Translations under genes and position numbers: made by a program | The notes under the pieces: model-generated | What the model saw: the letters and a program-made list of their open reading frames with translations, nothing else | Database searches by the model: none | What the model was told of the DNA's origin: nothing | NCBI GenBank assembly: GCA_026184295.1 | Contig: JAHCJK010000004.1 | Location: forward strand, 1-64,000 | Direction: 5' to 3' | Source: Planctomycetota bacterium | GTDB taxonomy: Bacteria; Planctomycetota; SZUA-567; H5-PLA8 | DNA: 64,000 nucleotides | Shown here: in pieces, positions 1,187 to 16,314 of the stretch | Layout of the letters: each line of letters starts with the position of its first letter | Numbering within the stretch: the stretch's first letter is position 1

Positions 1187-1217
1187 AAGGGCGCGGCGCA
1201 AGCCGCGCCCTTCTTAT
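1187..1217 (+). terminator. Intrinsic terminator after the porin gene
   Basis: An 11-bp GC-rich stem (1187-1197 with 1202-1212) and a GCAA loop are followed by a short pyrimidine/T stretch. It starts 26 bp after the porin stop codon. Confidence 0.75.
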
Positions 1218-1241
1218 TTGGCGAGCACGATCGCGCAGCAC

Positions 1242-1271
1242 AAAAAAGGGGCATGGCGAACGCCATGCCCC
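1242..1271 (-). terminator. Intrinsic terminator for the SDR gene
   Basis: A perfect 11-bp stem (1248-1258 with 1261-1271) has a six-A run on its left side. Read on the minus strand this is a hairpin followed by six T residues, 34 bp past the SDR stop codon. Confidence 0.85.
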
Positions 1272-1304
1272 TTCCCTTTTGCCGCCGAATGCGCCGCCGA
1301 AGGC

Positions 1305-2099: not shown

Positions 2100-2220
2100 G
2101 CGTCCTCCGGATGCGTTTCGGAAATGGGGTTGAAGCCCACGTTACCGCCGCCGTCCGATTCTTGCCAGGACCGCGCGCGCGTCCTAAAGTGAGGTCCGGC
2201 GACGCGGGCCCGGATCCTTC

Positions 2221-3726
2221 ATGCGCATCCCCTTCGACTTGATGGCGGCGTTGATCGGCCTCCAGGCCGTGCAGCAGCTCGTCGCGCAAGCCTACCCCCA
2301 CGACGTCCCCATGCCCGGGGAAGAACGCTACACGGCCGCGGCCGTCGCGGTGCTCGGCTACTGGCTGGCGGTCTGGCTCTTCCACGAGGCCCTCGCGCGG
2401 CGGTACCTGTGGGCGACGCGCTTCGGGCACCATCCGGGCGGGCTGCCGGCCCCGGCCGGCGCCCCCGCCCCGGCGCATCCGCTGGAACGCCACGCCCGCG
2501 GCGAGGCGCTCGGGCAGGCCCTGGCGGTGCTTGGCTACGTCCTGTTGATCTGGCGCTTCGACTGGACGATGCTGATGCTCTTCTGGCCCGAGGCCCTGGG
2601 CCTGGACGCCCTGTTCGCGCAGGCGACCCTGGACAAGCTGGCCCGCAGCGAACTGGTGGGCACGACGCTGAACCTGGTCCCGTTCCTCGGCGCGATGGTG
2701 CTCTCCTGGCTGCCGCGGCGGCGCATGCTCCAGGCCTCGCTGGGCCGGGCGATCCCGCGCCGGCGCTGGCTGGCGCTGGAAGCGCGCATGACCTTCATGC
2801 CCCTCTGCGCGTGGTTCGCGATCAACCTCGTCTACGACGCCCTGAACCTGTCCGGCGTGGTGGACCTGAACGCGGCGCTGAACCAGACCGCGCAGGATTC
2901 CGGCGGGCCCGCCGGCACGCCGATGCTGGTCGGCGGCTTTCTGCTGATCCTGTTCTCCGCCGTGGTGCTGATGCCCTGGATGGTCCTGAAGCTCTTCCGC
3001 TGCCGCCCGATGCCCGAGGGCGAACTGAAGGACCGCATGAACGCCGTGGTGGCGCGCTCGGGCGTGAAGGTGCGCGCGATCATGGCCTGGGGCCCGCGGG
3101 GCTCCGGCCTGGCCAACGCCTGCGTGCTGGGGCCGTGGTCGCGCTTCCGCTACGTGCTGATCAGCCCGGGCCTGACCGACATGCTCACGCCGGAAGAATG
3201 CGAGGCCGTCGTGGCGCACGAACTCGGGCACGCCCGCCACGGGCACCTGTACATGCTCGTCGCGGCGGTGCTGTTCCTCGCGGGGCTCTCCGCGCTGCTC
3301 GCGCGCTTCATGCCGTTCAGCCACCCGCTGGCGCAGGCCGCGGTCTTCGTGGCGCTGATCGTGCTGTACCTGCGCTACTTCTTCGGCGCGCTGATGCGCA
3401 TGTGGGAACGCGAGGCCGACCTGGCCAGCTCGGAGATCGTCGGATCGCCGCTCCCGCTCGCGCACGCGCTGGAAAAGCTGGCCCGCTGCTCCGGCGGCAT
3501 TCGCGACGTCTACTCCTGGCACCACGGGTCCATCGCCTCGCGCGTACACGCGCTGCTCGAAGACGGGCTCGATCCCGAACGCATGGCGCGGTATCATCGG
3601 CGCATGAACCGCCTGCGCGCCGGGTTCCTGGCCTTCGCGAGCCTGACGCTTTTCGTGGTGGTGGCGCTTACGGCGCTGGACGACCGGGCCGCCGCGGCGC
3701 AGGCCCGGACCGAACACCGGAAGTGA
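2221..3726 (+). CDS. M48-family integral-membrane zinc metallopeptidase
   Basis: A 501-residue polytopic membrane protein. The zinc site HELGH lies at about residues 333-337, followed by RHGHLYM. The third ligand is probably the Glu of WEREAD near residue 398. Hydrophobic segments occur at roughly 40-60, 98-125, 148-165, 190-210, 235-257, 343-362 and 370-392, and there is a last one near the C-terminus. The layout resembles Ste24/HtpX-type peptidases, which cleave membrane proteins or CAAX-like peptides. The first 330 residues are longer than in HtpX and closer to the Ste24 layout. It is followed 26 bp later by a CMD-fold gene, probably in the same transcript. Confidence 0.85.
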   Translation: MRIPFDLMAALIGLQAVQQLVAQAYPHDVPMPGEERYTAAAVAVLGYWLAVWLFHEALARRYLWATRFGHHPGGLPAPAGAPAPAHPLERHARGEALGQALAVLGYVLLIWRFDWTMLMLFWPEALGLDALFAQATLDKLARSELVGTTLNLVPFLGAMVLSWLPRRRMLQASLGRAIPRRRWLALEARMTFMPLCAWFAINLVYDALNLSGVVDLNAALNQTAQDSGGPAGTPMLVGGFLLILFSAVVLMPWMVLKLFRCRPMPEGELKDRMNAVVARSGVKVRAIMAWGPRGSGLANACVLGPWSRFRYVLISPGLTDMLTPEECEAVVAHELGHARHGHLYMLVAAVLFLAGLSALLARFMPFSHPLAQAAVFVALIVLYLRYFFGALMRMWEREADLASSEIVGSPLPLAHALEKLARCSGGIRDVYSWHHGSIASRVHALLEDGLDPERMARYHRRMNRLRAGFLAFASLTLFVVVALTALDDRAAAAQARTEHRK

Positions 3727-3752
3727 CCGCCCAAGCCCCTGGAGGCCCCCGC

Positions 3753-4118
3753 ATGGCCCGCCCCGCCCCGCGCAAGATTCCGCGCCGCTACCTGGAAGCC
3801 CGCGAACGCTATCCCGCCGTGCTGGAAGCCTACGAACGCTTCGGCGCCGCGCTGGAAAAGGCCGGGCCGCTCAGCCGCCGCGAACAGCGCCTGGTCAAAC
3901 TCGGCCTCGCCTTCGGCGCGAAGATGGAAGGCGCGAGCCATTCCGCCGTGCGCAAGGGCCTCGACGCGGGCCTGACGCCGCACGACCTGGAACACGCCGC
4001 GCTGCTGGCGATGAACTCGCTGGGGTTTTCGAGCGGCATGACCTGCCTCTGCTGGGTGCGCGACATCACGGAATCGTCCGGAAAGCCGTCCCGCAAGCGG
4101 GAGCGGAAGCCGTCCTAA
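3753..4118 (+). CDS. Carboxymuconolactone decarboxylase (CMD/AhpD-fold) family protein
   Basis: A 121-residue all-helical protein. The pattern YPAVLEAYERFGAALEKAGPL, then a basic LVKLGLAFGAKMEG, then ASHSAVRKGLDAGLT is typical of the CMD fold, where an AhpD-type CxxC near the first Glu/His would carry the redox site. The usual cysteines are absent there (EGASH), and only a CLC pair remains near the C-terminus. The peroxidase chemistry of AhpD is therefore unlikely at the normal position. ATG 3753 has GGAGG at 3741-3745. The C-terminal tail is basic (KPSRKRERKPS). It is probably co-transcribed with the upstream peptidase. Confidence 0.72.
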   Translation: MARPAPRKIPRRYLEARERYPAVLEAYERFGAALEKAGPLSRREQRLVKLGLAFGAKMEGASHSAVRKGLDAGLTPHDLEHAALLAMNSLGFSSGMTCLCWVRDITESSGKPSRKRERKPS

Positions 4119-4147
4119 AGGAACACGGAAACGCCCGGAGGAATTCC

Positions 4148-4636
4148 ATGAACGGCACGCGCGGTAGGCTCCTGGCCCTGGTCATGCTCGCGGCGATCCT
4201 GGCCGGCACGGCGCACGGCGTGGAAGAACGCATCCGCGGGGTGCTCGAAAAGACCGCCCGCCCGGACGCCTGCGCGCAGATCAAGGACGCGCTGAACGAA
4301 ACGTATTACATCAGCAAGAGCGAGCCGGCGGAGAAGATGATCGCGGAGCTGATGGGCAAGCGCGTGCTGATCACCGGGATCGTCGAACAGCACCCGGGCG
4401 ACCCGGCGTACTACTTCGTGCTCAAGAAGGCCGAACCGTACGCGGCCAAGCTCCCCGCCGCGCCGAAGACGACCGACGGCAAGACCGAATCGCCTCTGCC
4501 GCTCCCGCCGCTGGAGAGCAAGCCGCTGCCGCTGCCGCTGCCGAAGGAAGAGAAGCCCGCCGCCGCGCCGGACGAAGCCAAGAAGACGGCGAAGACGGAA
4601 GCAAAGAGCGAATTGGAGAAGGCCGAGAAGAAGTAG
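4148..4636 (+). CDS. Small secreted protein with a Lys/Glu/Pro-rich tail, unknown function
   Basis: A 162-residue protein. A signal peptide is obvious (basic MNGTRGR, then LLALVMLAAILAG, cleavage near AHG). The mature part has an 80-residue globular segment containing GKRVLITGIVEQHP, which has the look of a small beta-barrel or OB-like strand pattern. After it comes a low-complexity tail with repeated PLPLP units and charged EK/KK runs. I do not recognise a family. The start is supported by a GGAGG-type site just before ATG 4148. It follows the CMD gene by 29 bp and may be the last gene of that transcript. Confidence 0.65.
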   Translation: MNGTRGRLLALVMLAAILAGTAHGVEERIRGVLEKTARPDACAQIKDALNETYYISKSEPAEKMIAELMGKRVLITGIVEQHPGDPAYYFVLKKAEPYAAKLPAAPKTTDGKTESPLPLPPLESKPLPLPLPKEEKPAAAPDEAKKTAKTEAKSELEKAEKK

Positions 4637-4644
4637 ACGGCCCG

Positions 4645-5571
4645 TCACTCGTCCAGCGTATCCCGGCCCGTGATCTGCTTGAAGGCCTCGAGGTATTTCT
4701 CGCGCGTCTTCTGCACGACCTTTTCGGGAAGTTCGGGGCCCGGGGCCATCTTGTTCCAGCCCAGGCCTTCCAGGTAATCGCGGACGAACTGCTTGTCGAA
4801 GCTGAGCTGCACCTTGCCGGGCGTCCACGCGTCCTTGGGCCAGAAGCGCGAACTGTCCGGCGTCAGCACCTCGTCCACGAGGATGATGCCGTCCTGGAAG
4901 ATGCCGAATTCGAGCTTGGTGTCGGCGATGATGATGCCGCGCGAGAGCGCGTGCTCGTACGCCTTCGTGTACACCGCGATGCTCAGCTCTTTCAGCTTCT
5001 GCATGTGGGCGCGGGCGGTCTCGAGCGGCAGGGCCATCAGTTCGACCAGGCGCGCGACGGCAAAGTCGTAGGTGATGTTCTCGTCGTGGCCGGTGTTGTT
5101 CTTCGTCGCGGGCGTGAAGATGACCTCGGGGAGCTTGTCGCCGTTCTTCAGGCCGCGCGGGAGCTGGATGCCGCAGACGGTGCCGTTCTTGTCGTTGTAT
5201 TCCTTCCAGCCCGAACCCATCAGGTAGCCGCGGACCACGCATTCGATGGGAAAGACCTGCGCCTTATGGCAGAGCATGCTGCGGCCGGCCAGCGTCGCCG
5301 CGTGCTGCGCCAGCCCGTGGCCCATCTCGCGAACGTCGCACGTGATCACGTGGTTCTTGACCGTCTCGCCCAGGAACTTGAACCAGAAGCGCGAGAGCCC
5401 GTTCAGCACGCAGCCCTTGTCGGGGATCGGCGTCGGCAGGACCACGTCGAAGGCGCTCAGCCGGTCGGTGCTGACGATCAGCAGTTGGTCGCCCAGATCG
5501 TAGACGTCGCGAACCTTGCCGCGCGCTTTCAGCTTCAGGCCGGGCAGATTCGTCTCGAAAACACTCGACAT
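4645..5571 (-). CDS. purC: Phosphoribosylaminoimidazole-succinocarboxamide synthase (SAICAR synthetase)
   Basis: PurC ligates CAIR with aspartate in the eighth step of IMP synthesis. The protein (308 residues) has the family N-terminus GKVRDVYDL followed by LLIVSTDRLSAFDVVLPTPI. Later it has the segment ECVVRGYLMGSGWKEY and the metal/aspartate region LVDEVLTPDSSRFWP. This is the longer eukaryote/planctomycete-like PurC length rather than the 240-residue E. coli type. The frame is open further upstream, but the Met at 5569-5571 starts exactly where PurC proteins start and has GGGAGG about 9 bp before it. It converges on the secreted-protein gene, with 8 bp between the stops. Confidence 0.95.
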   Translation of the reverse strand: MSSVFETNLPGLKLKARGKVRDVYDLGDQLLIVSTDRLSAFDVVLPTPIPDKGCVLNGLSRFWFKFLGETVKNHVITCDVREMGHGLAQHAATLAGRSMLCHKAQVFPIECVVRGYLMGSGWKEYNDKNGTVCGIQLPRGLKNGDKLPEVIFTPATKNNTGHDENITYDFAVARLVELMALPLETARAHMQKLKELSIAVYTKAYEHALSRGIIIADTKLEFGIFQDGIILVDEVLTPDSSRFWPKDAWTPGKVQLSFDKQFVRDYLEGLGWNKMAPGPELPEKVVQKTREKYLEAFKQITGRDTLDE

Positions 5572-5774
5572 ACGGAAAAGCCTCCCAAATTCGACGTGCG
5601 GCCATCGTGCGGCCACCGCATGCTATACCTTTCCACCGGCCAATTAAACAGGCGAATTCGCCGCGCGCCCGCCGCCGCCGTTTCCGCACGCGTTCCTGGG
5701 AAGTTTCTCGGCCCAAAAACCACCGCGCAAACGTATGAGGCTGCGGCGGTTGCAAATTCACCCGCGGTGCGTGG

Positions 5775-5826
5775 TTGACTTCGCCGGTTTCCTGTGTAAG
5801 TTTCCTTCAAGGAAACAAAAGTTTCC
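5775..5826 (+). promoter_or_regulatory. Promoter with overlapping GTTTCC operator for the XRE-cupin operon
   Basis: TTGACT at 5775-5780 and TAAGTT at 5797-5802 are spaced 16 bp apart. Overlapping the -10 is a near-palindrome, GTTTCCTT-C-AAGGAAAC, at 5800-5816. Extra direct GTTTCC copies lie at 5787-5792 and 5821-5826. The array covers the expected start of transcription, as an autorepression site for the regulator encoded just downstream would. The promoter hexamers and repeats are read directly; the link to this regulator is inference. Confidence 0.6.
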
Positions 5827-5848
5827 TCCTTCCGCTAGGAGATTCCGC

Positions 5849-6487
5849 TTGGCCGACGCCGCCGCCCTGGGCCCCCTGATCCGCAACCTGCGCACGCGCC
5901 GCGGCCTGCGTCTGGAAGACGTCGCCAAACGCTCCGGCTACACCAAAGGGTTCCTCAGCAAGATCGAGAACGGGCGCGCCTCGCCGCCCATCGCAACCCT
6001 GATGCGCCTGGCCGAAGCCCTGAACGTCGATCCCACGGTCTTCTTCCACGCCAACGGCAACGGGTCGAACGGCGCGGGCGCCGATCCGCACGCGACCGTG
6101 CACATCACGCCCGACCGCCGCACCAAGGTGCTGAACGCGGGCGCGGGACCGGGCTATACGTACTGGTCGCTGGCCGCGCAGCGCACGCACAAGGCCATGG
6201 AACCCTTCCTGCTCACCGTCCATCCCGGCGAGTTCGACCCGAAGAAGACCTTCCAGCATCCGGGCGAGGAGTTCCTGTACGTGCTCGAAGGCGCGATGGA
6301 TTACCGCGTCGGCAGCGAGACCTTCAGCCTCGGGCCGGGCGACAGCCTGTATTTCGATTCGACGCGCCCGCACGCGCCGCACCCCAAGGGCGGCCCGGTG
6401 ACGTTCCTGGCGATGTTCTACGCCCCGCCCCGCCCGGAAGCCCCCGCGAAGCGCCGCGCGCCGCGCGCCAAGGCCCGGAAGAAATAG
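5849..6487 (+). CDS. XRE-type helix-turn-helix regulator with C-terminal cupin domain
   Basis: About 212 residues. The N-terminal HTH (RNLRTRRGLRLEDVAKRSGY, then KGFLSKIENGRASPPIATL) is a classic Cro/C1-type DNA-binding domain. The C-terminal half is a small cupin with the HPGEEFLYVLEG strand and the SLGPGDSLYF and RPHAPHP segments, where a sugar or metabolite ligand would bind. The best start is TTG 5849, which has AGGAG seven bases upstream and begins at the HTH. The frame is open further upstream, but that would translate the operator repeats. It has a basic tail. It is the first gene of the oxidoreductase operon (8 bp to the next gene) and is probably its ligand-responsive repressor. Confidence 0.85.
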   Translation: MADAAALGPLIRNLRTRRGLRLEDVAKRSGYTKGFLSKIENGRASPPIATLMRLAEALNVDPTVFFHANGNGSNGAGADPHATVHITPDRRTKVLNAGAGPGYTYWSLAAQRTHKAMEPFLLTVHPGEFDPKKTFQHPGEEFLYVLEGAMDYRVGSETFSLGPGDSLYFDSTRPHAPHPKGGPVTFLAMFYAPPRPEAPAKRRAPRAKARKK

Positions 6488-6495
6488 GAGCAGCC

Positions 6496-7623
6496 ATGCG
6501 CATCAACTTTCACGGACGCTTGAGCGACGAGCCGCAGATCCGCGCCGGGTTCATCGGCTGCGGCTCGCACGCCTTCCGCAACGTCTACCCGGTCTTTCAG
6601 TTCGCGCCGGTCAACCTGGTTGCGACCTGCGACCTGGACCTGCCCCGCGCGCAGGCCTTCGCCCAACAGTTCGGCGCCGAGCGCGCGTACGCGAACCACC
6701 GCGAGATGCTCGAGAAGGAGCAGTTGGACGCGCTCTTTATCGTCACGCCCTACGACGCCGCGGGCCGACCCATGTACCCGAAGCTCGCCGCCGACGGCCT
6801 GGCCGCCGGCTGCCACGTCTGGATCGAGAAGCCGCCCGCGGGCTGCTGCGAGGACCTCGAACGGCTGCGCGAGGCCGCGAAAGCCGCGGACCGCCAGGTG
6901 CTCTGCGGCCTGAAGAAGATGTTCATGCCCGCCAACGAACATCTGAAGGACCTGATCGCGCGCCCGGACTTCGGGAAGGTCTCGCAGGCGCTGGTGCAGT
7001 ATCCGCAGCACATCCCCGAGGCCGGCGTGCTGCGCGCGTACCTGCGCGGCGAACGCAGCGGCGAGGCCATCAGCTTCCTCGACCATCTCTGCCATCCGGC
7101 CTCGCTGATCGTCTTCCTCTTCGGCATGCCCGAGAGCCTGTGGTACGACCGCGCGCGCAACGGCGGCGGCGTGGCGCACCTGCGCTACCCCGGCGGCGAA
7201 CTCGTCACCCTCGCGCTCACCCACGGCCAGGCGTACGACGGCGGGCTCGAACGGACCACGGTGATCGGCGAACGCGGGCACCACGCCGTCGTCGAGAACA
7301 ACCTGCGCGTGCGCTACCACCGTTCGCCGCCCGCGCCCGAGGGCCAGGGCTACGGCGCGCGGCCCAGCGTCTTTCACGGCTCGCCCGAGGACGCCACCGC
7401 GAGCTGGGAACCCGAGTTCTCGCTCGGGCAGCTTTACAACAAGGGCCTCTTCCTGCTCGGCTACTACAACGAAGTGAACGAGTTCGCGCGCGCGATCCTC
7501 GACCGCCGCCCGCTCGCCAAGGGCACGCTCGAACAGGCCTGGCAGATCACGCGGCTCTTCGAGGCCTTCGCCGAAGGTCCGCGCAAAGAGATCGCGCTGG
7601 CCCCGTGCGCCGCGCAGGCCTGA
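6496..7623 (+). CDS. Gfo/Idh/MocA family NAD(P)-dependent oxidoreductase (paralogue A1)
   Basis: A 375-residue protein with an N-terminal Rossmann fold, GFIGCGSHAFRN at about residues 18-29. The hallmark EKPP (in WIEKPPAG) contributes the catalytic Lys, and LCGLKKMFMP follows. The C-terminal alpha/beta domain carries a candidate catalytic His in DHLCHPASL. Family members oxidise or reduce hydroxyls of sugars, cyclitols or amino sugars. It lacks a signal peptide, so it should be cytosolic. By motif similarity it pairs with the gene at 9452 (both have G-KK-FMP and a VVENN/LCENN block). Second gene of the operon; the substrate is unknown. Confidence 0.9.
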   Translation: MRINFHGRLSDEPQIRAGFIGCGSHAFRNVYPVFQFAPVNLVATCDLDLPRAQAFAQQFGAERAYANHREMLEKEQLDALFIVTPYDAAGRPMYPKLAADGLAAGCHVWIEKPPAGCCEDLERLREAAKAADRQVLCGLKKMFMPANEHLKDLIARPDFGKVSQALVQYPQHIPEAGVLRAYLRGERSGEAISFLDHLCHPASLIVFLFGMPESLWYDRARNGGGVAHLRYPGGELVTLALTHGQAYDGGLERTTVIGERGHHAVVENNLRVRYHRSPPAPEGQGYGARPSVFHGSPEDATASWEPEFSLGQLYNKGLFLLGYYNEVNEFARAILDRRPLAKGTLEQAWQITRLFEAFAEGPRKEIALAPCAAQA

Positions 7624-7653
7624 GCCCGAATCGAACTTAAAAAAGGAGCCACC

Positions 7654-8394
7654 GTGCCGATCCAACTTGCCACCAGCGCCTGCTGCCTCCCCACCCTCTC
7701 GCGCGACGAACTGCTCGAGGCCTCCGCGCGCGCGGGCTACACCGGCGTGGAACTCTTCTGCACCTGGACGAGCGCCAAGGCGGAGGTCGCGGGCGAACCG
7801 GCCAACGCGTTCCTCGGCCACGGCGTGCGCGTGAGCGCGCTCCATCTGCCCGGCAAGGTCGAGGAAGGCCTGAAGGCCGTCGATCTGGCCGCCTCCGCCG
7901 GCGTGCCGCAGGTGGTCGCGCACGGCGCGGGCAAGCCCGAAGACGCCGGCACGTGGCTCGCCCCGGTCGTGCGCCACGCGCGGACGAAGGGCGTCGAAGT
8001 CGTCGTCACCAACCACAAAGGCCAGAGCATCGAGACCGCGGAGCAGGTCGAAGCTGTGCTGGAAGCCTGCGGCGACGCGCGCCCGTGGGTGCTGCTCGAG
8101 GCCGGGCAGTACTGGGCCGCGGGGCTGGACGCGTTCGCGGCGCTGGAACGCTTTCGCGACCTCGTGCGCCTCGTCCACATCAAGGATCTCGACGAGCAGG
8201 GCCGCTCGGTGCCCTTCGGCACGGGCGTCTCGCCCTGGCGCGAGTTCATGCGCGCGCTCGACGCCGCCGGCTACGCCGGGCGGGTGGTGGTGGAACTGGA
8301 ACTGAAAGGTACGCCGCCGGAGGAGGTCGAGCGCTTGCTCGCCGACGCGCGGCAGAAACTGGAAGCCGTCCTGGAAGCCTGCGCGCAGCGCTGA
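7654..8394 (+). CDS. Sugar phosphate isomerase/epimerase (xylose-isomerase-like TIM barrel)
   Basis: A 246-residue AP-endonuclease-2/IolE-like barrel. Metal-ligand segments appear in order: GYTGVELF (Glu), VVVTNHKGQ (His), WVLLEAGQYW, VRLVHIKDLDE (His and Asp) and VVVELELKG (last Glu). Enzymes of this fold isomerise or epimerise ketoses and keto-inositols, or dehydrate 2-keto-inositol, with Mn or Co. Translation starts at GTG 7654 with AAGGAG upstream. It is placed between the first two oxidoreductases of the operon, which fits an oxidise-isomerise-reduce scheme for one sugar. Confidence 0.85.
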   Translation: MPIQLATSACCLPTLSRDELLEASARAGYTGVELFCTWTSAKAEVAGEPANAFLGHGVRVSALHLPGKVEEGLKAVDLAASAGVPQVVAHGAGKPEDAGTWLAPVVRHARTKGVEVVVTNHKGQSIETAEQVEAVLEACGDARPWVLLEAGQYWAAGLDAFAALERFRDLVRLVHIKDLDEQGRSVPFGTGVSPWREFMRALDAAGYAGRVVVELELKGTPPEEVERLLADARQKLEAVLEACAQR

Positions 8395-8425
8395 AGCGCT
8401 TCGCACGCACCCCATTGGAGAACCC

Positions 8426-9442
8426 ATGAGCGCCGTAACGCCCGAAGAAGAAAATCTGGTCCGCCTGGCCGTGATCGGCTGCGGAAGCCTTTCGACCAAG
8501 CGCATCTTCCCCTGCTTTCCGCGCCTGCCGGTGCGCCTAGTCGGCGTCTGCGACCTGGACGAAGCCAAGGCCAGGCAGAACGCGCGGCGGCACGGCGGCG
8601 AGGCCGTGTACAGCGACGCGCTGAAGATGCTCGACGAGACCAAGCCCGACGGCCTGGTGGTCTGCATCGGGCCCGAGATGCACGCGAAGCTGGCCAAGGA
8701 GGCGCTCGCGCGCGGCATCCCGGTCTACACCGAAAAGCCGCCCGCGCCGACGGCGACGGAAGCCTGGGCCGTCGCGCAGGCCGCGCGCAAGGCCGGCAAG
8801 CTGTGCATGACGGCCTTCAAGTACCGCTACGCGCCCGCGCAGGCGAAGGCGCGCGCGATCATCCAGTCGCCGGAATTCGGCGGGCTTTCGAACCTGAGCA
8901 TCGTGCGCGCCAGCGGCCCGTACAAGAACCTGCCCGGCAACGCGCGCACCGAGTTCCTCCTCGATTTCTGCATCCACCCCATCGACCAGACGCTCTTTCT
9001 CGCCGGCGACCTGGACGAGGTCTTCGCGGTTGCGCCGACGATGGACAACTACGCGATCAGCGTGCGCTTCGCTTCCGGCGCGGTGGGCTCGCTGGCGTTC
9101 TCGTGCCGCGGCTCGTGGAGCCAGCCGCTCGACCGTGCGGAAATCTTCGGCGCGGCCGGCCAGCAGATTCAGCTCGTGGACCAGATTTTCCTGCGCTACC
9201 ACGCCGACGGGGTGAACAAGCAGACCAACGAGCCGCGCTTCTGCACCGCCGGCGGGGACTCGCTGGTCGAGACCGGCTTCTTCCCCGAAGTCGAAGCGTT
9301 CGTCGCGCACCTGCAGGGGAAACGCCCCGTCGAACAGATCCCCAGCCGCATCGAGGAGTCCGTGAAGTCGCTGGCGTTTTACGAAGCGATCAAGGCATCC
9401 GCCGCGTCGGGCAAGCCGGTCAAGCCCGCGCGCTTTGAATAG
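8426..9442 (+). CDS. Gfo/Idh/MocA family oxidoreductase (paralogue B1)
   Basis: A 338-residue protein. RLAVIGCGSLSTKRIFPCF forms the dinucleotide-binding turn and YTEKPPAPTA carries the catalytic Lys. MTAFKYRYAPAQAKARAII is the substrate-side segment and CIHPIDQTLF has the likely catalytic His. No secretion signal is present. It is clearly the sister of the gene at 10963: both have EKPDG/TKPDG-L-VCIG, MTA-K-R-APA and IIQSPEFG/IVQSPEFG. It lies 31 bp after the epimerase and 9 bp before the next oxidoreductase, so it is translated from the same mRNA. The substrate is not predictable from sequence. Confidence 0.9.
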   Translation: MSAVTPEEENLVRLAVIGCGSLSTKRIFPCFPRLPVRLVGVCDLDEAKARQNARRHGGEAVYSDALKMLDETKPDGLVVCIGPEMHAKLAKEALARGIPVYTEKPPAPTATEAWAVAQAARKAGKLCMTAFKYRYAPAQAKARAIIQSPEFGGLSNLSIVRASGPYKNLPGNARTEFLLDFCIHPIDQTLFLAGDLDEVFAVAPTMDNYAISVRFASGAVGSLAFSCRGSWSQPLDRAEIFGAAGQQIQLVDQIFLRYHADGVNKQTNEPRFCTAGGDSLVETGFFPEVEAFVAHLQGKRPVEQIPSRIEESVKSLAFYEAIKASAASGKPVKPARFE

Positions 9443-9451
9443 GAAACGGAC

Positions 9452-10534
9452 ATGGCCATCGTTTTCGCGCACGAGGAGGTCCGCCGCCTGAAGGTGGCCG
9501 TGGTCGGCTGCGGCAACCACGCGTACCGGAGCATCTTTCCATGCTTCGACTACCTCGCGGCCGAGGTCGTCGCGGTCTGCGACCTGGACCTGGCGCGCGC
9601 GCAGAAATACGCGAAGCACTTCGGCGCCGGGCAGGCTTGCGCGTCGCTCAAGGAAGTGATCGCGCGCGGCGAAGCCGAGGCCGTGGTGCTCGCCGTGGGC
9701 CCGAAGCAGCACCCGGACCTCGCGGCCGAGGCGCTCGACGCCGGGCTGCACGTCTGGCTCGAGAAGCCGCCCAGCGCCGACGTCGCGGGCGTCGAGAAGA
9801 TGATCGCGGCGCGCGATCGCAGCGGCAAGCAGGTGGTCGTCGGGTTCAAGAAGGCCTTCATGCCGGCGACGCGGCGGATGATGGAAGCGCTTGCGACCGG
9901 GCACTACGGCAAGCTGCGCACCGTCTCCGGGCGCTTCCCGCTCGGCTTCCCCGAAGACGGGCCGAAGGTGCTGGCCGAAGGCCGCGGCACGAACTGGCTC
10001 GGCAACGGCGTCCACCCGCTCAGCTTTTTCGTCCACGTCGCGGGCCGGCCGGACGCGCTGACGGTGCATCGCGCGAAGAACGGCGGCGCGTTCATCGTCA
10101 TGGAATTTCCCAGCGGCGCGATGGGCTGCCTGCACGACGCCGCGGGCGCCACGGCCGCCAGTTCGATGGAGCGCTACGAACTCGTCTGCGAAAAGGGCCA
10201 CATGCTCTGCGAGAACAACACGCGCCTGACGCTCTTCCGGCCCGGCGCGCCGTTCGACTACGGGCGCGGCCACGACTACACGCTGGGCAGCGACGAGGCG
10301 GCGGCGGTCACCTACGACATCCAGCACACGCTCTCGACGCTCTACAACAAGGCCATCTTCGTGCAAGGCTTCGTGCAGGAACTCGAACACTTCGTCGCCT
10401 GCGCGCTGGAAAATGTTCCGCCGAAGATCGGCACGCTGGAAGAAGCCAAGGCCGTGATGGAATGCTACGAAGCCGCGCTGCTGAGCGAAGGCAAGCCCGT
10501 GCGCCTCGACGACGTGAAGGCCCTTCGCGCGTGA
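9452..10534 (+). CDS. Gfo/Idh/MocA family oxidoreductase (paralogue A2)
   Basis: A 360-residue protein. Rossmann loop VVGCGNHAYRSIFPCF, catalytic WLEKPPSAD, then VVGFKKAFMPATRRM, and a candidate His in NGVHPLSFFVH. It shares with the gene at 6496 the FKKAFMP/LKKMFMP block, the EKGHMLCENN/ERGHHAVVENN strand and the LYNKAIFVQGF/LYNKGLFLLGY segment near the C-terminus. The two look like products of an old duplication. The cytosolic NAD(P) oxidoreductase role is from the family; the operon position is directly visible. It is 38 bp from the cupin gene downstream. Confidence 0.9.
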   Translation: MAIVFAHEEVRRLKVAVVGCGNHAYRSIFPCFDYLAAEVVAVCDLDLARAQKYAKHFGAGQACASLKEVIARGEAEAVVLAVGPKQHPDLAAEALDAGLHVWLEKPPSADVAGVEKMIAARDRSGKQVVVGFKKAFMPATRRMMEALATGHYGKLRTVSGRFPLGFPEDGPKVLAEGRGTNWLGNGVHPLSFFVHVAGRPDALTVHRAKNGGAFIVMEFPSGAMGCLHDAAGATAASSMERYELVCEKGHMLCENNTRLTLFRPGAPFDYGRGHDYTLGSDEAAAVTYDIQHTLSTLYNKAIFVQGFVQELEHFVACALENVPPKIGTLEEAKAVMECYEAALLSEGKPVRLDDVKALRA

Positions 10535-10572
10535 AAACCTTTCAGGACGAGCCACCACCAGGAGCCCATGCC

Positions 10573-10944
10573 ATGACCGAACCGAAGATCGCCCCGATGC
10601 GCAAAGGCGAAGCCCCCGCGGAGAAATACGCCTGGGGCGACATCCACTGGCTGGCCAGCAAGACGGCCAACGGCGCGCGCGAACTCACGCTCGGCAGCAC
10701 CGTCGTCGAGCCCGGCGGGCGCAATCCGCTGCACCGCCACCCCAACTGCGAGGAAGTGCTGTATGTCGTGGCGGGCGAGATCGAACACATCGTCGAAGGC
10801 GCGCCCACGGTGCGCATGAAGGCCGGCGAAGCGATCCTGATTCCGCGCAACCTGAAGCACCAGGCGATCAACGTGGGCGGGGTCCCCGCCGAACTGCTGG
10901 TCGCCTTCAGCAGCGCCGAACGCGAGACCGTGATCGAGCAGTAA
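10573..10944 (+). CDS. Single-domain cupin protein
   Basis: A 123-residue protein built around one cupin barrel. Motif 1 is NPLHRHPNCEEVLYVVAGE (two His and one Glu as metal ligands), and motif 2 is KAGEAILIPRNLKHQAIN (His). ATG 10573 has GGAG eight bases before it; the nearer ATG at 10568 opens only a two-codon frame. Small cupins in sugar operons act as isomerases (for example KdgF-type or ulosonate cyclising enzymes) or as binding proteins. Its ligand set is complete, so an enzymatic role with a metal is likely. It sits between two oxidoreductase genes, 18 bp before the next. Confidence 0.82.
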   Translation: MTEPKIAPMRKGEAPAEKYAWGDIHWLASKTANGARELTLGSTVVEPGGRNPLHRHPNCEEVLYVVAGEIEHIVEGAPTVRMKAGEAILIPRNLKHQAINVGGVPAELLVAFSSAERETVIEQ

Positions 10945-10962
10945 CCCGAACCGGGAGGACGC

Positions 10963-11955
10963 ATGCCGGACCTGAGACTCTGCATGATCGGCGCGGGCCA
11001 GCACGCGTCGAAGAACATGTACCCCAACTTTCCGCTGCTGAACGGCGCGCGCGTCGTCGCCAACGCGGACCTGGACGAGAACCGCGCGCGGGAGATCGCC
11101 GGGCGCTACGGCATCGCCAAGTCCTACGCCGACCCGCGCCGGATGCTCGAGGCGGAGAAGCCCGACGGCGTGCTGATCTGCATCGGCAGCACGCTGCACG
11201 AAAAGCTTGCGCCGGAAATCCTCGGCCTCGGCTATCCCGTCTACGTCGAAAAACCCGGCTGCGACACGCTGGAAGGCGCGCGCCGCATCGCCCAGGCTTC
11301 GGAACGCAGCGGGAAGATTTTCATGACCGCGTACAAGAAGCGCTTCGCGCCCGCGTACGTGAAGGCGAAGAAGATCGTCCAGAGCCCTGAGTTCGGCCGG
11401 CCTTCCCTGCTGACCGCGCTCCGCACCAAGGGGCCCTCGGCCGAGCGCGATCCGTCGAAGTCGGGCTCCTGCTACCTGCTGCAGTGGGGCTGCCACATCC
11501 TCGACCTGCTCCCCTTCCTGTTCGGCAACGTCGCGGAAGTGGAAGTCTTCCGCGCAGGGACCGGCCCGGAAGCGATCGCGGCGAACCTGCGCTTCGCCAA
11601 CGGCGCGCTCGGGCAGCTCGCGATCAGTTCCGCGATGGCCCGCAGCCGCATTCGCGAGGAAGTCATGGTGATCGGCAGCGGCGGCATCCGCGTGAACATC
11701 GACAACTCGACGACCATGCTCGCGCTGAACGGCGACCAGCCTTTCGCGCTGCACCAGCCCGACTGGACCAACGGCGCGAACTTCTCGAACATCGAGCAGG
11801 GCTTTCTCGGGGAACTTCAGGAGTTCGCCAACGCCATCCGCGAGAAGCGCCAGCCCGAGGCCAACGCGCGCCAGTGCCTGCACACGATGGCGCTTTACGA
11901 CGCGATCGTGCGCTCCTGGGACGACGGCGGCATCGTGCGCGTGGAGGAATCATGA
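10963..11955 (+). CDS. Gfo/Idh/MocA family oxidoreductase (paralogue B2)
   Basis: A 330-residue protein with MIGAGQHASKNMYPNF as cofactor turn, YVEKPGCDTLEGAR as catalytic Lys segment, MTAYKKRFAPAYVKAKKIV as substrate segment, and QWGCHILDLLPF with the candidate catalytic His. It is the sister of the gene at 8426. A canonical GGGAGG lies just before ATG 10963. The stop codon overlaps the start of the next gene (ATGA at 11952-11955), a strong sign of translational coupling with the last epimerase. Confidence 0.9.
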   Translation: MPDLRLCMIGAGQHASKNMYPNFPLLNGARVVANADLDENRAREIAGRYGIAKSYADPRRMLEAEKPDGVLICIGSTLHEKLAPEILGLGYPVYVEKPGCDTLEGARRIAQASERSGKIFMTAYKKRFAPAYVKAKKIVQSPEFGRPSLLTALRTKGPSAERDPSKSGSCYLLQWGCHILDLLPFLFGNVAEVEVFRAGTGPEAIAANLRFANGALGQLAISSAMARSRIREEVMVIGSGGIRVNIDNSTTMLALNGDQPFALHQPDWTNGANFSNIEQGFLGELQEFANAIREKRQPEANARQCLHTMALYDAIVRSWDDGGIVRVEES

Positions 11956-12698
11956 AGCTCGCGTTCTCGATCCCCAACCGCGACGAGGCCGCGCGCCGCG
12001 CGTGCTTCGCGCAGTTTCGCGAGTACGGCTTCGCCGGCCTGCAACTGAAGGGCGATTACCGCCCGTACCTGGACGAACCCAAACGCTTTTTCGAGATGTA
12101 TCCGCAGATGCGCGGCGCGATGAGCGGGCTGATTCTGGGTGCGAAGCTGGACGAGGCCGGCCGCGAACTCCTTCGCCGGACCATCCGCTTTGCCGGCGCC
12201 ACGCAGTCCGCGCTGGTGATCCTGTGCCTTTCGGAACCGCGCGATGGTCAGACGGCGGAGACGCTGCGCGCGAACGCGCGGTCGCTCTCGGAACTCGGCC
12301 GCGAGGCCCTCGACGCCGGCACCAAGCTCTCGCTGCACAACCACGCCGACCAGCCCGTGATGACCCGCGCGGACGCGGAGGTCTTCTTCGAGGCCGCCGC
12401 GCCCGGGACCGTGGGGCTGACCGTGGACACCGCGCACTTCGCCAAGGGCGGCGAGCGCGACCTCGCGGGCATCGTGCGCGCTTTCCGCGGCGTGATCGAC
12501 AACTTTCACGTGAAGGATTTCGACGGCGAACGCTTCCGCATGCTGGGCGAAGGCGCCATCGACTTCGCGCCGCTCTTCGCGGCCATCCGCGAGACTGGCT
12601 ACGACGGCTGGATCAGCGCCGACGAAGAAAGCGGCGCGGAACTGGGTCTGGCGCTGAAGACGACGGCGCGGTTCCTGAACGAATCGCTAAGCGGTTGA
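11952..12698 (+). CDS. Sugar phosphate isomerase/epimerase, last gene of the operon
   Basis: A 248-residue TIM-barrel protein of the xylose-isomerase-like superfamily. Ligand segments are SLHNHADQPV (two His), GLTVDTAHFAKGG (Asp, His), NFHVKDFDGERF (His, Asp) and WISADEESG (Glu). The block resembles the IolE/YcjR type more than the epimerase at 7654 does, so the two are unlikely to be redundant. Its ATG overlaps the preceding stop by four bases. The gene ends two bases from the stop of the convergent transposase gene, so there is no room for a normal terminator between them. Confidence 0.85.
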   Translation: MKLAFSIPNRDEAARRACFAQFREYGFAGLQLKGDYRPYLDEPKRFFEMYPQMRGAMSGLILGAKLDEAGRELLRRTIRFAGATQSALVILCLSEPRDGQTAETLRANARSLSELGREALDAGTKLSLHNHADQPVMTRADAEVFFEAAAPGTVGLTVDTAHFAKGGERDLAGIVRAFRGVIDNFHVKDFDGERFRMLGEGAIDFAPLFAAIRETGYDGWISADEESGAELGLALKTTARFLNESLSG

Positions 12699-12699
12699 C

Positions 12700-13374
12700 T
12701 CATAAAAGATGGAAGTTGCGCATGGCTCTCGCCAAAGTCATCAAGTTTGAAAATTGCCCAAGCCTCTCCCAGTAGCCATGGTTTCCCCAGTGCGGCTCCG
12801 CCGCCTGCTGTGCGGAAAGGCTATGCCTTTCCGAAGCGAGGACCCACAATGAACGAGGATACGCCTCGCCTAACGCCCTGCGCCTCCATGCAATCTCTTC
12901 TTTGTCGACGCACAGAGGCTCTTCCAAATCTGGAATCTCCTCCCACTGCCTGGCACTCGACCAGCGGTAATCGCGCGCTCGATCACATAGCCGCGCCCGC
13001 ACCGGATTCAGATGGAGGTACCGAACGCGCTGTTCCCAGAGGGAGTGCTTGTACTTGCGCTGCTTCTCTTCCGTCCGAAGCTTGGCCAGCGACGACTCGA
13101 ACCCCCGCTCTTTCAGGTATCCAAGCACCCTTCGGCTGATGATGCCGTTGATGTAGCGCAAGGTCTCGGAAGGTTTACGCCTGCCATCGGTGATGATGTG
13201 GAGGTGATCCGGCATGAGCACGAAGGCGAACACACGAAACTCCCCAGATGTTCGCGCTTCGCTTATAGCCGCGCACGCGATCGACTTGATCTTGTCGGAT
13301 TGAAAAACAGGGAGCCGGTCCTTCGCCACCGAAGTGAAGAATTGCGCGGGCGAGTCGTTTGAGATACGGAACAT
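12700..13374 (-). CDS. REP-associated tyrosine transposase (RAYT, IS200-like Y1 family)
   Basis: About 224 residues. The family signature is clear: VFAFVLMPDHLHIITDG holds the HxH (HUH) metal site, and QRVRYLHLNPVRARLCDRARDYRWSSARQ is the conserved C-terminal block with candidate catalytic Tyr residues. RAYTs are domesticated single-strand transposases that nick and move REP hairpins. The Met at 13372-13374 (MFRISNDSPAQ) is the likely start. The open frame continues 28 codons upstream, but through the hairpin repeat. The C-terminal 40 residues likewise read through the other repeat arm and are not family-like, so the ancestral stop may have been lost. Confidence 0.8.
   Translation of the reverse strand: MFRISNDSPAQFFTSVAKDRLPVFQSDKIKSIACAAISEARTSGEFRVFAFVLMPDHLHIITDGRRKPSETLRYINGIISRRVLGYLKERGFESSLAKLRTEEKQRKYKHSLWEQRVRYLHLNPVRARLCDRARDYRWSSARQWEEIPDLEEPLCVDKEEIAWRRRALGEAYPRSLWVLASERHSLSAQQAAEPHWGNHGYWERLGQFSNLMTLARAMRNFHLL
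12792..12868. repeat. Left REP-like arm (three hairpins) of the RAYT element
   Basis: Three short hairpins in a row: GCGGC-TCC-GCCGC (12792-12804), CGGAAAGGC-TAT-GCCTTTCCG (12813-12833) and CGAGG-ATACG-CCTCG (12854-12868). Between the first two lies the linker CCTGCTGTG. The same three hairpins, in inverted order, form the right arm at 13387-13465. This arm overlaps the 3' end of the transposase reading frame. Confidence 0.8.
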
Positions 13375-13386
13375 TTGGAGCCTTTG

Positions 13387-13465
13387 TCGAGGCGTAGCCT
13401 CGACTATATTAGAGCGCGCCTGCGGAAAGGCAGAGCCTTTCCGCACAGCAGGCGGCATAGCCGCC
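13387..13465. repeat. Right REP-like arm (three hairpins) of the RAYT element
   Basis: TCGAGGC-GTA-GCCTCGA (13387-13403), CGGAAAGGC-AGA-GCCTTTCCG (13423-13442, with the linker CACAGCAGG after it) and GGCGGC-ATA-GCCGCC (13451-13465). This is the inverted counterpart of the left arm, with loop and compensating base changes. It lies just upstream of the transposase start. Between here and the next gene (13466-13599) the DNA is AT-richer, and I see nothing else in it. Confidence 0.8.
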
Positions 13466-13599
13466 CTTCACCACCAACTGCTTTATGAACGGCCTCACGC
13501 TCAATGGAAGTAAGGAAGAAGTAATTTCTATAAACAGAAAATCCCACTCATTCATTCACCTGAGTCGTGATGTTGTCAGACCCGGGCGGTTGATACCGC

Positions 13600-13938
13600 C
13601 TACCGGCCCCGGATGCCCAGGAGTTCCACCTCAAACACCAGGACGGCGTTGGGGGGGATCACGCCGCCGGCGCCGCTCGCGCCGTAGCCCATCTCGGGCG
13701 GGATGGTCAGCTTGCGCTTGCCGCCGATCTTCATGCCGGCAAAACCCTGGTCCCAGCCTTTGATCACGCGGCCCTTGCCGAGGGGAAAAGAGAACGGTTC
13801 GTTGCGGTCCACGCTGCTGTCGAACTTCTTGCCGTTCGTCAGCCAGCCGGTGTAATGGACGACGATGGTCTCGCCCGCGTTGGGCGACGCGCCCGTGCCG
13901 ACCACCAGGTCCTCGATCACGAAACCGGCTGCGCTCAT
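13600..13938 (-). CDS. FKBP-type peptidyl-prolyl cis-trans isomerase
   Basis: A 112-residue single FKBP domain. The FK506-site landmarks are visible: VVHYTGWL, the KKFDSS turn, [33 protein letters not shown] and [14 protein letters not shown]. It catalyses proline isomerisation during folding. No signal peptide is present, so it acts in the cytoplasm. ATG 13938 has GGGAG six bases upstream. It lies 27 bp downstream of the kinase-FGE gene on the same strand and is probably co-transcribed with it. Confidence 0.93.
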
Positions 13939-13965
13939 GCGTGCTCCCTTGGCTGGACTGCGGGT

Positions 13966-16185
13966 TCAGGTGTCCTTCTTCGGCACCAGCACCAGCCGGA
14001 AGCCGATGTTGAAAAAGCGCGCGTCCCGCTGGCTCTGATACCGCTTGGCCGAGCGGCAGTACTTGTCGCTGTAATTCCAGCTCCCGCCGCGCAGGACGTG
14101 CAGATTGCTCTCCTCGGTGTTCACCGGGTCGAGGGCGGGTTCGCGGTGGTAGAAATCGGGGTGGTAGTAGTCCTCGCACCATTCCCACACGTTGCCGTGC
14201 ATGTCGTACAGGCCGAACGCGTTGGGCGGGAAGACGCCGACCTCGAGCGTCTCCGGCCAGGCTTCGCCCGGGCGCAGCGACGAAAGCCGGCTCGTGGACG
14301 GCTTCTTCATGATGTACGTGTCGCCCGTGCGGTGCGAACTGTCCCACTTGAAGAGCGCCTGGCGGCTGTTGAGCTTGGGCCCGAAGAAATACGCTTCGGC
14401 GCTGCCCGCGCGGCAGGCGTACTCCCATTCGGCTTCCGTCGGGAGGCGGTAGAACCAGCCCTGCGGCGCGAACGGCTGGATCGCCGGCAGGAACTTCTCG
14501 CGGATTTCCTTCCACGAGACGCGTTCGACCGGGCGGCGCGGGCTGTCGGTTTCGCCCTTGAAGCGGCTCGGGTTCGTCCCGGTCACGGCCTCGTACTGCG
14601 CCTGCGTCACGGGGTAGATGCCCATGTAGAAGGGCTTGGTGAGCCGCACGTAGTGGGTCAGTTCGTCCTTGTCGCGCCCGTCTTCGTCGTGCGGGCTGCC
14701 CATGACGAACTTGGCCGCCGGCAGCAGCGCGAACTCCAGGCTCACGTTGCCCGGCAGCGCGATGGACTTCTTTTCCGGCAGGCCGGTGGCCTCGGCGGTC
14801 TCCTGCATGCGGCGCGGCATGTCGCCCGCGGCGACGGGCCAGTCTTCGTAGACGCGGTGCTTCCAGTCCGCTTCGAGCGAACCGGCCTGCGACACCATGG
14901 TCGTCGGCAGCGCGCTGGAACTCTGCGACGCCCGCCCGGACCGGGACTTGGACGAGGCTTCCTTCATCTCGGGCGGCTTGATCTCTTTCGACGAAGGCGG
15001 CGGCGTGGCCACCGAAAGGCGCGCCGAAGACTTGGCCGCCGGCTTTTTGGGGATGATCACGGTCTTCGAGACCGCCGCGCGCAGGCGTTCGGAGTCGAGC
15101 TTGCGCACGGTGGGGATGCGGTTCGGGCGCGCGGCCTTCAGGGATTCGAGCAGGTCGTCGGCCGACTGGAAGCGCTTGGCGGCGTCCTTGGCCAGGCAGC
15201 GGTCCACCACGGCCTCGGTTTCCAGCGAGATGTCGTTGCGAATCCTGGTGATCGGCGCGTGCGGCTGCTCGACGGTGTACATCAGGACTTCCATCGAGGT
15301 CCGTCCGGTAAAGGGCGCGCGGCCGGCCAGCAGCGCGTACAACGTCGCGCCCATGCCCCACACGTCGGCGGGTTTGCCGGCGCTCTTGGCGTCCTGCACC
15401 TGCTCGGGCGCCATGTAGCCCGGCGTGCCCATCACCTGGAACGACGTCGTCAGGCCCGCGGAACTTTCCTGCCGCGCCAGGCCCAGGTCGGCGAGCTTGG
15501 CCTGGTTGTAGTCGTGGCCGGGCTTCCCGTCCTTGCGGTTGGGCAGCATGATGTTGGCGGGCTTCACGTCGCGGTGAACGATGCCTTCGGCATGCGCGGC
15601 GGCCAGGCCCTTGGCCGCGGCGATGCAGATGTCCAAGGCGTCGTTTTCGGTGACTCCGGGCTTGCCGGAGGCCACGGCGTCCTTGATCAACTGCGCCGCG
15701 CTGATGCCCGTGACGTACTCCATAACGATGTAGAAGAGGCCGTTGTCTTCGTCGACGTCGCTGACGTGGACGAGGTGCGGCGAACGCACCGCGGCGGCCG
15801 TCTGCGCTTCGCGGAAGAAGCGTTCGATCAGCACCGGGTCCTTTTCGGCCATCGAGAGCGGCAGGACCTTGACCGCGACTTCCACCTTCAGGTTCGGGTG
15901 GATGCCGTAGTACACGGCGCTCATCCCGCCCGTGCCCAGCCGCGCGAGCAACGGAATCTTGCCCAGGCGGGGGACGCTGCGGCCATCCACTTCGGCGCGC
16001 GGCGCGAAGGAGAGCAGCTTGTCTTCGGTCAGGTCCTGGATCGGCACCGAGAGCGATTTATTGACCATCAGGTGCGAACGCAACCCGCGCCCGCCCGGAG
16101 TGATCCCCGTGCCGCCGTGGTTGATGCCCGTGCCGCCGCCCGGCATGGTCGGAGGCAACGGGTTGTTGTCGAATGATTTGCTCAC
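13966..16185 (-). CDS. Ser/Thr protein kinase fused to a formylglycine-generating-enzyme-like (SUMF1) domain
   Basis: 739 residues. A Hanks-type kinase occupies about 75-345: Gly loop GTGGMSAV (84-91), AVKV Lys106, HRDVKPAN with Asp206, DLG in place of DFG at 233, and APE at 259-261. A Ser/Pro/Lys-rich linker follows (355-475). A C-type-lectin/FGE-sulfatase fold then runs from 480 to 739, with MGSPHDED, YPVTQAQYEAVTG, RLPTEAEWEYACRAG, DMHGNVWEWCEDYY and RGGSWNYS. No membrane helix is seen, unlike many PASTA kinases. In this family the FGE-like part usually serves as a binding or sensor domain; the copper-binding cysteine pair of true FGE is not apparent. First of a kinase-FKBP pair. Confidence 0.92.
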   Translation of the reverse strand: MSKSFDNNPLPPTMPGGGTGINHGGTGITPGGRGLRSHLMVNKSLSVPIQDLTEDKLLSFAPRAEVDGRSVPRLGKIPLLARLGTGGMSAVYYGIHPNLKVEVAVKVLPLSMAEKDPVLIERFFREAQTAAAVRSPHLVHVSDVDEDNGLFYIVMEYVTGISAAQLIKDAVASGKPGVTENDALDICIAAAKGLAAAHAEGIVHRDVKPANIMLPNRKDGKPGHDYNQAKLADLGLARQESSAGLTTSFQVMGTPGYMAPEQVQDAKSAGKPADVWGMGATLYALLAGRAPFTGRTSMEVLMYTVEQPHAPITRIRNDISLETEAVVDRCLAKDAAKRFQSADDLLESLKAARPNRIPTVRKLDSERLRAAVSKTVIIPKKPAAKSSARLSVATPPPSSKEIKPPEMKEASSKSRSGRASQSSSALPTTMVSQAGSLEADWKHRVYEDWPVAAGDMPRRMQETAEATGLPEKKSIALPGNVSLEFALLPAAKFVMGSPHDEDGRDKDELTHYVRLTKPFYMGIYPVTQAQYEAVTGTNPSRFKGETDSPRRPVERVSWKEIREKFLPAIQPFAPQGWFYRLPTEAEWEYACRAGSAEAYFFGPKLNSRQALFKWDSSHRTGDTYIMKKPSTSRLSSLRPGEAWPETLEVGVFPPNAFGLYDMHGNVWEWCEDYYHPDFYHREPALDPVNTEESNLHVLRGGSWNYSDKYCRSAKRYQSQRDARFFNIGFRLVLVPKKDT

Positions 16186-16314
16186 GGTTGTGGTTCCTGC
16201 ACAGGAGGTGCCCCAACGAGCATAGCGCGAATCCCGCTCTTGCTCATATCAAAAAAGACGAAGGAGGGCAAAGCGCTATTCGGGATTCCCGCCGCCAGGC
16301 CGCGCCGGGAGCGC

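Follow-up and report, generated by a model that had tools for sequence, protein, structure and literature searches.

A predicted operator shared by a Gfo/Idh/MocA oxidoreductase operon and the UPF0261/PEP_hydrolase genes in Planctomycetota

The contig JAHCJK010000004.1 of a Planctomycetota bacterium contains, within the stretch of 64,000 nucleotides analysed here (the window), an operon encoding an XRE-cupin regulator, four Gfo/Idh/MocA oxidoreductases (Gfo1 to Gfo4), two xylose-isomerase-like TIM barrels (TIM1 and TIM2) and a small cupin. In this study, a predicted operator at the promoter of this operon was also found before a second operon of the same genome, which encodes a UPF0261 protein and a PEP_hydrolase-type protein. 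The comparison of genomes suggested that one XRE-cupin regulator probably governs a catabolic regulon of two operons that acts on a sugar or glycoside. The predicted regulon itself is well supported, and from enzyme families and precedents we infer the substrate and chemistry of the pathway. The operon, its conservation, a fusion of TIM1 to the cupin, and the operator-promoter arrangement shared with the UPF0261/PEP_hydrolase operon were read directly from the sequence.

The predicted operator is composite and overlaps the promoter of the operon (Table 1). In the 6.4 Mb genome of the window (G000), a whole-genome scan revealed exactly two GTTTCCN5GGAAAC sites, one before the XRE operon and the other on contig C200, where the site lies about 30 bases before the UPF0261 gene, which is followed by the PEP_hydrolase gene, and is spaced identically relative to a TTGACG-16-TAGTTT promoter. 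The promoter layout, consisting of TTGAC, 16 bases and TAxGTT or TAGTTT, is found before the XRE operon, before the UPF0261 operon and before both operons of a sister species of the same genus (G001), whose genome has exactly two operator sites at the same two genes. Moreover, a genome of another planctomycete family (G104) has exactly two sites, before XRE-[TIM1+cupin]-Gfo2 and before PEP_hydrolase-UPF0261, and a second, imperfect copy, GTTTCATNATAGGAAAC, follows each of them. By chance, about 0.19 matches to the palindrome and about 7e-5 matches to the composite operator are expected per genome. Among 392 genomes of the phylum, two distinct GTTTCCTNNANGGAAAC-form sites were present only in these three genomes, in which the same operator precedes both operons. 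The other GTTTCCTNNANGGAAAC-form matches were single in each genome and as frequent as those of a reversed-pattern control, and no regulon gene adjoined the three of these that were inspected.

A second class of predicted operator, class B (ATTCAACTTTGTTGAAT), was located before the regulator in G351 of another planctomycete family (at both copies of the cluster, which are the only sites of that genome), in the Phycisphaerales UBA7800 locus L042 and in G027, and a variant of it was located before the regulator of locus L037. Alignment of the regulators demonstrated that the recognition helix carries (T/S)KG(F/Y) in five regulators of class A, the first operator class, and T(R/K)SL in five of class B. 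Because G027 belongs to the taxonomic class of the window and yet has the class B helix and operator, the correspondence between helix and operator follows the regulator and not the position of the organism.

The second operon encodes a pair of families that has been described before. In bacteria, archaea and fungi, the UPF0261 and PEP_hydrolase-type (TBST) families are found together and evolve in concert; in land plants they are fused, and the relatives of UPF0261 include the tomato virus-resistance protein Tm-1 (PMC5028733). The published papers found on the UPF0261 family, that study included, assign no biochemical function to it. The UPF0261 protein considered here is Tm-1-like and annotated as ATP-binding, and the family was detected in 91 of the 392 genomes, including all six that encode Gfo1. 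It is tentatively proposed that UPF0261 and PEP_hydrolase might take over what the Gfo, TIM-barrel and cupin proteins produce and catalyse the later steps, so that the two operons would constitute a previously undescribed catabolic pathway. If true, this would be the first biochemical role for a pair that extends from bacteria to land plants, and the link provided by the shared operator makes the pathway and the orphan pair testable together.

Two further observations concern these loci. Contig C200 of the window's genome encodes another, more distant protein of the cupin family (L153:3575-3982, minus strand; also in L155 and L156); in this genome and in the sister species it lies just upstream of the UPF0261 and PEP_hydrolase genes, before the operator. 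In several genomes, a gene beside the UPF0261 locus encodes a PEP_hydrolase domain fused to a sigma-54 activator with AAA+ and Fis helix-turn-helix domains (L021:2769-4565, minus strand; Pfam was run on L021 only), with open reading frames resembling this fusion at L035:16162-17904, L156:3943-5703, L191:5845-7554 and L211:2995-4752. The fusion suggests that a PEP_hydrolase-type domain can act as a ligand sensor.

Several observations weigh against the proposed regulon and pathway. In two genomes of the same family as the window, G004 and G006, a 16-bp site occurs once per genome, only before the XRE gene, and the UPF0261 loci have no operator; thus, the same operator does not precede both operons there and the two-operon regulon is not universal. 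Among 39 sampled UPF0261 loci, PEP_hydrolase was encoded in 31, a cupin of the operon's family in only 8 and a Gfo protein in none, which led us to reject UPF0261 loci as general partners of Gfo genes and indicates that UPF0261 has other partners too. The catalytic Asp, located four residues before the catalytic His, is retained in Gfo1 and Gfo2 and replaced by Gly in Gfo3 and by Gln in Gfo4, so the four proteins need not all be classical dehydrogenases. Furthermore, in structural comparisons Gfo1 matches a large number of Gfo families that differ by no more than a few orders of magnitude, and the fold of TIM1 has template modelling scores of about 0.8 to dozens of sugar epimerases and isomerases; such matches are generic, and chemistry at C3 is therefore only an analogy.

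The eight genes, all on the plus strand between 5849 and 12698, follow each other in the order regulator, Gfo1, TIM1, Gfo2, Gfo3, cupin, Gfo4 and TIM2 with spacings of 8, 30, 31, 9, 38 and 18 bases and, between Gfo4 and TIM2, an overlap of 4 bases (ATGA, 11952-11955); AGGAG-like ribosome-binding sequences precede most of the starts. Pfam assigned HTH_31/HTH_3 and Cupin_2 to the regulator, GFO_IDH_MocA to four proteins, AP_endonuc_2 to two and Cupin_2 to one. These domains and gaps bear out the description, in an earlier note on this DNA, of an eight-gene, single-strand and nearly gapless operon, although some of its gene calls were revised. The regulator most likely starts, to judge from the sequence, at the TTG at 5849, since the start of the longest open reading frame (5735) and the start called before (5775, a TTG within the TTGACT -35 box) lie in or before the promoter, and an alignment of regulators also favours 5849; the starts of the cupin and TIM2 were corrected to 10573 and 11952. 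The two proteins taken for epimerases are indeed two xylose-isomerase-like TIM barrels of the AP_endonuc_2 type, but the word epimerase is merely a superfamily label. The TIM-barrel fold of this type also covers isomerases, dehydratases, eliminases and hydratases. The window's genome contains 74 matches to the PF01408 profile, so that a single Gfo gene is unremarkable; four within 6 kb of one operon are not due to chance.

Table 1. Predicted control elements and genes of the operon (positions in the window)
Feature	Position	Strand	Remarks
Promoter-like TTGACT-16-TAAGTT	5775..5802	+	Comparison of four promoters
Predicted composite operator	5787..5826	none	GTTTCC (5787) and 17-bp palindrome GTTTCCTTCAAGGAAAC (5800-5816) overlapping GGAAACAAAAGTTTCC (5811-5826)
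XRE-type helix-turn-helix and cupin transcriptional regulator	5849..6487	+	TTG start, seven bases after AGGAG
Gfo1, Gfo/Idh/MocA oxidoreductase	6496..7623	+	Full catalytic set: K112 of EKP, D196, H200
TIM1, xylose-isomerase-like TIM barrel	7654..8394	+	GTG start; closest solved folds UlaE and the 2-hydroxy-3-keto-glucal hydratase AtHYD
Gfo2, Gfo/Idh/MocA oxidoreductase	8426..9442	+	Full catalytic set: K104, D180, H184
Gfo3, sister clade of Gfo1	9452..10534	+	Catalytic Asp replaced by Gly (WLGNGVH)
Small Cupin_2 protein	10573..10944	+	Invariant metal-site residues H54, H56, E61, H96
Gfo4, sister clade of Gfo2	10963..11955	+	Catalytic Asp replaced by Gln (LLQWGCH)
TIM2, xylose-isomerase-like TIM barrel, partner of Gfo4	11952..12698	+	ATG overlapping the Gfo4 stop

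Generic scans for sigma-70 promoters and terminators gave nothing useful, and the weak -10 box kept the operon promoter uncalled; an Rfam scan of positions 1-20000 detected no RNA element. A gene for a REP-associated tyrosine transposase (12700-13458, minus strand; 73.9 bits against a cut-off of 80) lies immediately 3' of the operon. The sister species has neither this transposase nor Gfo4-TIM2, and the further genes (FKBP, kinase and VWA) are the same; thus, Gfo4-TIM2 may have come or gone at this position. Elsewhere in the window, a sulfatase-like gene (22056-23540, plus strand) was judged by eye from its translation.

Conservation of the cluster in relatives, which the earlier note named as a check, was seen in several families of the phylum as well as in Lentisphaerae, but the eight genes are not one conserved unit. 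On sequence comparison, the conserved core consists of the XRE regulator, the cupin, TIM1, Gfo2 and usually Gfo1, with Gfo3 and Gfo4-TIM2 as optional parts. The order is XRE-Gfo1-TIM1-Gfo2-Gfo3-Cup in the sister species and XRE-TIM1-Gfo2-Cup-TIM2like-Gfo1 in G004 and G006, where Gfo3 is located in a second cluster with UPF0261, PEP_hydrolase, a 2-hydroxyacid dehydrogenase-like protein and a TIM barrel. In other planctomycete families, G351 has XRE/Cup-TIM1-Gfo2-Gfo1 adjoining UPF0261 and PEP_hydrolase as well as a second copy, XRE/Cup-TIM1-Gfo2, and its cluster has 73% DNA identity to that of L042, a match from which the phylum was assigned to Planctomycetota; G027 has XRE-TIM1-Gfo2-Cup, G236 has XRE-Cup-TIM-Gfo2-TIM2like, and in G104 TIM1 and the cupin are fused into a single protein of 373 amino acids. 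Gfo2 was present in every core copy seen within the phylum. Outside it, the Lentisphaerae genome GWF2_49_21 has XRE-Cup-TIM1-Gfo4-TIM2-Gfo2, two URO-D genes and Gfo1, and Gfo1 adjoins the cupin in Firmicutes, Actinobacteria, Armatimonadota and Rhizobiaceae. In one scan, the cupin family was found at 12 of 23 Gfo1-type loci and at none of 56 other Gfo loci. Gfo1 was encoded in 6 and a strong Gfo2 in 9 of the 392 genomes, the 6 all falling within the 9; related genomes do not count as independent, but these come from three families.

Lentisphaerae and a Bacillota genome encode proteins of the URO-D family (uroporphyrinogen-decarboxylase/methyltransferase type) within or beside the cluster (L037:7609-9820 and L041:7883-8995), and a methylated substrate is conceivable from their presence. 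Other copies of the cluster have genes of the glycoside hydrolase (GH) families GH95, GH116 and GH31 nearby, and the copies in Rhizobium are accompanied by an ABC transporter for sugar uptake. These neighbours favour a carbohydrate over a cyclitol as substrate, and they also stand against a cluster that makes or modifies an unusual sugar of a glycan or antibiotic. The latter role would suit the weak matches to a UDP-GlcNAc 3-dehydrogenase and the biosynthetic enzymes among the matches (KanD2 and a sugar 3-ketoreductase, both Gfo paralogues); however, no copy of the cluster was seen to include an aminotransferase, nucleotidyltransferase or glycosyltransferase, and autoregulation through a predicted operator at the promoter is a typical feature of catabolic systems, so we regard a biosynthetic cluster as highly improbable. 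The operon was said to have no transporter, hydrolase or kinase, which holds at this locus but not for the Rhizobium relatives, with their transporter, and the predicted regulon adds the UPF0261/PEP_hydrolase operon. An amino-sugar, suggested as one possible substrate, found no support in the evidence.

The four Gfo proteins belong to the superfamily by their PF01408 Rossmann domain and the lysine of the EKP motif, and share 25-35% identity pairwise. In a tree of 79 proteins, comprising the four Gfo sets, control Gfo proteins from other loci, YcjS and ThuB, each Gfo of the window grouped with its orthologues of other genomes in a separate, supported clade; the sister pairs were Gfo1 with Gfo3 and Gfo2 with Gfo4, and a clade with 98% support contained all four, with YcjS and ThuB outside. 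The tree was quick, and its control rows were picked by shared motifs, which makes relationships beyond the clades of the window's Gfo proteins unreliable. Their low identity marks the four as old paralogues and not as products of recent duplication. No enzyme of the operon reached the cut-off of any characterised or curated family model: the best Gfo scores were 90.2 bits against 355 for the IolG model TIGR04380, 60.8 against 650 for the LgdA equivalog model NF052479, and at most 31.5 for the glycoside 3-dehydrogenase models of the BT_2158/BT_2159 type (NF058561, 750 bits; NF058563, 650 bits). The tree and these models agree with the expectation that the oxidoreductases stand apart from characterised relatives, as far as relatives were tested. 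DgpA, one among numerous matches of Gfo1 and Gfo3, was rejected as the parent family: it headed the phmmer list for Gfo3, but was fifth with a Gfo1 profile of 27 sequences, and only the Rossmann half was aligned. Two more Gfo/Idh/MocA genes lie in the window, one (44895-46061, minus strand) that follows genes for an AraC-type regulator and for an ABC transporter of the dipeptide type and its binding protein (46147-50614, minus strand), and one (56931-58043, minus strand) that was not close to the operon's four in the tree.

An Asp after strand 2 of Gfo1 and Gfo2 favours nicotinamide adenine dinucleotide (NAD) as cofactor. The predicted structure of Gfo1 (mean predicted local distance difference test score, pLDDT, 91) had generic Gfo proteins as fold neighbours, and the best match of its 27-sequence profile in the Protein Data Bank (PDB) was a scyllo-inositol/L-glucose dehydrogenase (E 6.5e-24). 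This match, together with partial IolE alignments as the top NCBIfam matches of TIM1 and TIM2, would fit a cyclitol route in which Gfo proteins turn inositol stereoisomers into one another or into inososes by oxidation, the TIM barrels act as IolE/IolI/IolH-like dehydratases or isomerases and the cupin as an IolB-like isomerase. However, the IolG score cited above and that for IolE (TIGR04379, 58.3 bits against 290) are far under the cut-offs, and the top PDB matches, sugar enzymes among them, are only a few orders of magnitude apart. In addition, iolD, the hydrolase required by the canonical route, exceeded its cut-off in none of six genomes with the cluster, compared with 3 of 14 control genomes. 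Canonical inositol catabolism was thus rejected, which disfavours the cyclitol substrate suggested before in its canonical form, and a cyclitol route of any kind seems improbable. Naming of a substrate from PDB or fold neighbours was abandoned since the matches were too generic.

The predicted structure of TIM1 (pLDDT 86) was closest to UlaE, followed by AtHYD of Agrobacterium tumefaciens, and its profile likewise matched sugar epimerases and AtHYD. The metal-site residues of the cupin are kept in 17 of 17 relatives. All Pfam matches of this small protein were cupin-like, which distinguishes it from the beta-subunit partner (DgpB/C) of C-glycoside eliminases.

Routes that oxidise, rearrange and reduce are an alternative to hydrolysis in glycoside breakdown, and few have been characterised. 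In the pathway proposed here, the regulator would sit on the -10 region and repress both promoters until its cupin domain bound a sugar-derived ligand. Gfo1 and/or Gfo2 would oxidise a ring hydroxyl in an NAD-linked reaction, most likely at C3 by analogy; a TIM-barrel protein and the metal-binding cupin may isomerise, epimerise or eliminate the keto-sugar, the other Gfo may re-reduce the product, and UPF0261 and PEP_hydrolase would work downstream. Gfo3 and the Gfo4-TIM2 pair could be add-ons that widen the substrate range or handle a stereoisomer. The oxidise-epimerise-reduce route of the earlier note is plausible in kind, with precedents (PMC7676230, PMC10628242), but it needs the division into core and accessory genes and the second operon.

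Among known systems, the lgd operon of Bacillus smithii (LgdA, LgdB1, LgdB2 and LgdC), whose route has four steps (PMC7676230), resembles the present operon in combining dehydrogenases and sugar-phosphate-isomerase-type proteins with an oxidise-rearrange-reduce logic. In contrast, the window's proteins are far below the LgdA model, its operon has no ABC transporter, and it has in addition the cupin, more Gfo proteins, XRE-cupin control and UPF0261/PEP_hydrolase in the predicted regulon. The GlycDH-OGE-HYD-Gfo operon for O-glycosides of A. tumefaciens shares two TIM barrels and a Gfo enzyme, and its AtHYD (8ro4) has 15-16% identity to TIM1; the cupin and UPF0261 are unreported there (PMC10628242). 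A dehydrogenase, two TIM barrels and a Gfo also form the toolbox of the PUE operons, and with AtHYD so near to TIM1 the cluster could be a diverged bona fide levoglucosan or O-glycoside pathway of four steps (oxidation, elimination, hydration and reduction), the TIM barrels being eliminase and hydratase and two Gfo proteins the first and last enzymes. Besides the low LgdA score, the loci of the sister species, G351, G027 and L042 lack TIM2 and keep the core, so that two TIM barrels are not required, and neither the conserved metal cupin nor UPF0261/PEP_hydrolase is matched by any gene of the lgd, A. tumefaciens and PUE operons; such a pathway is therefore unlikely, and the two-operon regulon for a sugar or glycoside is preferred. 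The ycjQRS genes of Escherichia coli, annotated as D-guloside 3-dehydrogenase, 4-epimerase and D-glucoside 3-dehydrogenase, share the oxidise-epimerise-reduce scheme, the Gfo protein YcjS (26-31% identity to the window's four) and the TIM barrel YcjR, whereas the ycj locus is annotated with phosphorylases and a transporter and no cupin.

The UPF0261/TBST pair reported before comprises the same two families, which are joined here by a shared predicted operator to a sugar oxidoreductase operon. A literature search retrieved no paper on the cluster, on the operator or on locus RL_RS26775-26810 of plasmid pRL9 of Rhizobium johnstonii 3841. This locus, which unites relatives of Gfo1 and the cupin with UPF0261 and PEP_hydrolase, gives the regulon its closest relative in a named, culturable organism; it differs in its GntR regulator, sugar ABC transporter and single Gfo and in having no TIM1 or Gfo2. 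In agreement with the earlier note, no characterised pathway matched gene for gene. In conclusion, the operon follows a logic like that of the 3-keto routes (Lgd, Ycj and the A. tumefaciens O-glycoside operon) and is a member of none of them. The proposed route has a conserved regulator, a predicted operator and accessory enzymes of its own and occurs in several phyla, culturable Rhizobium among them.

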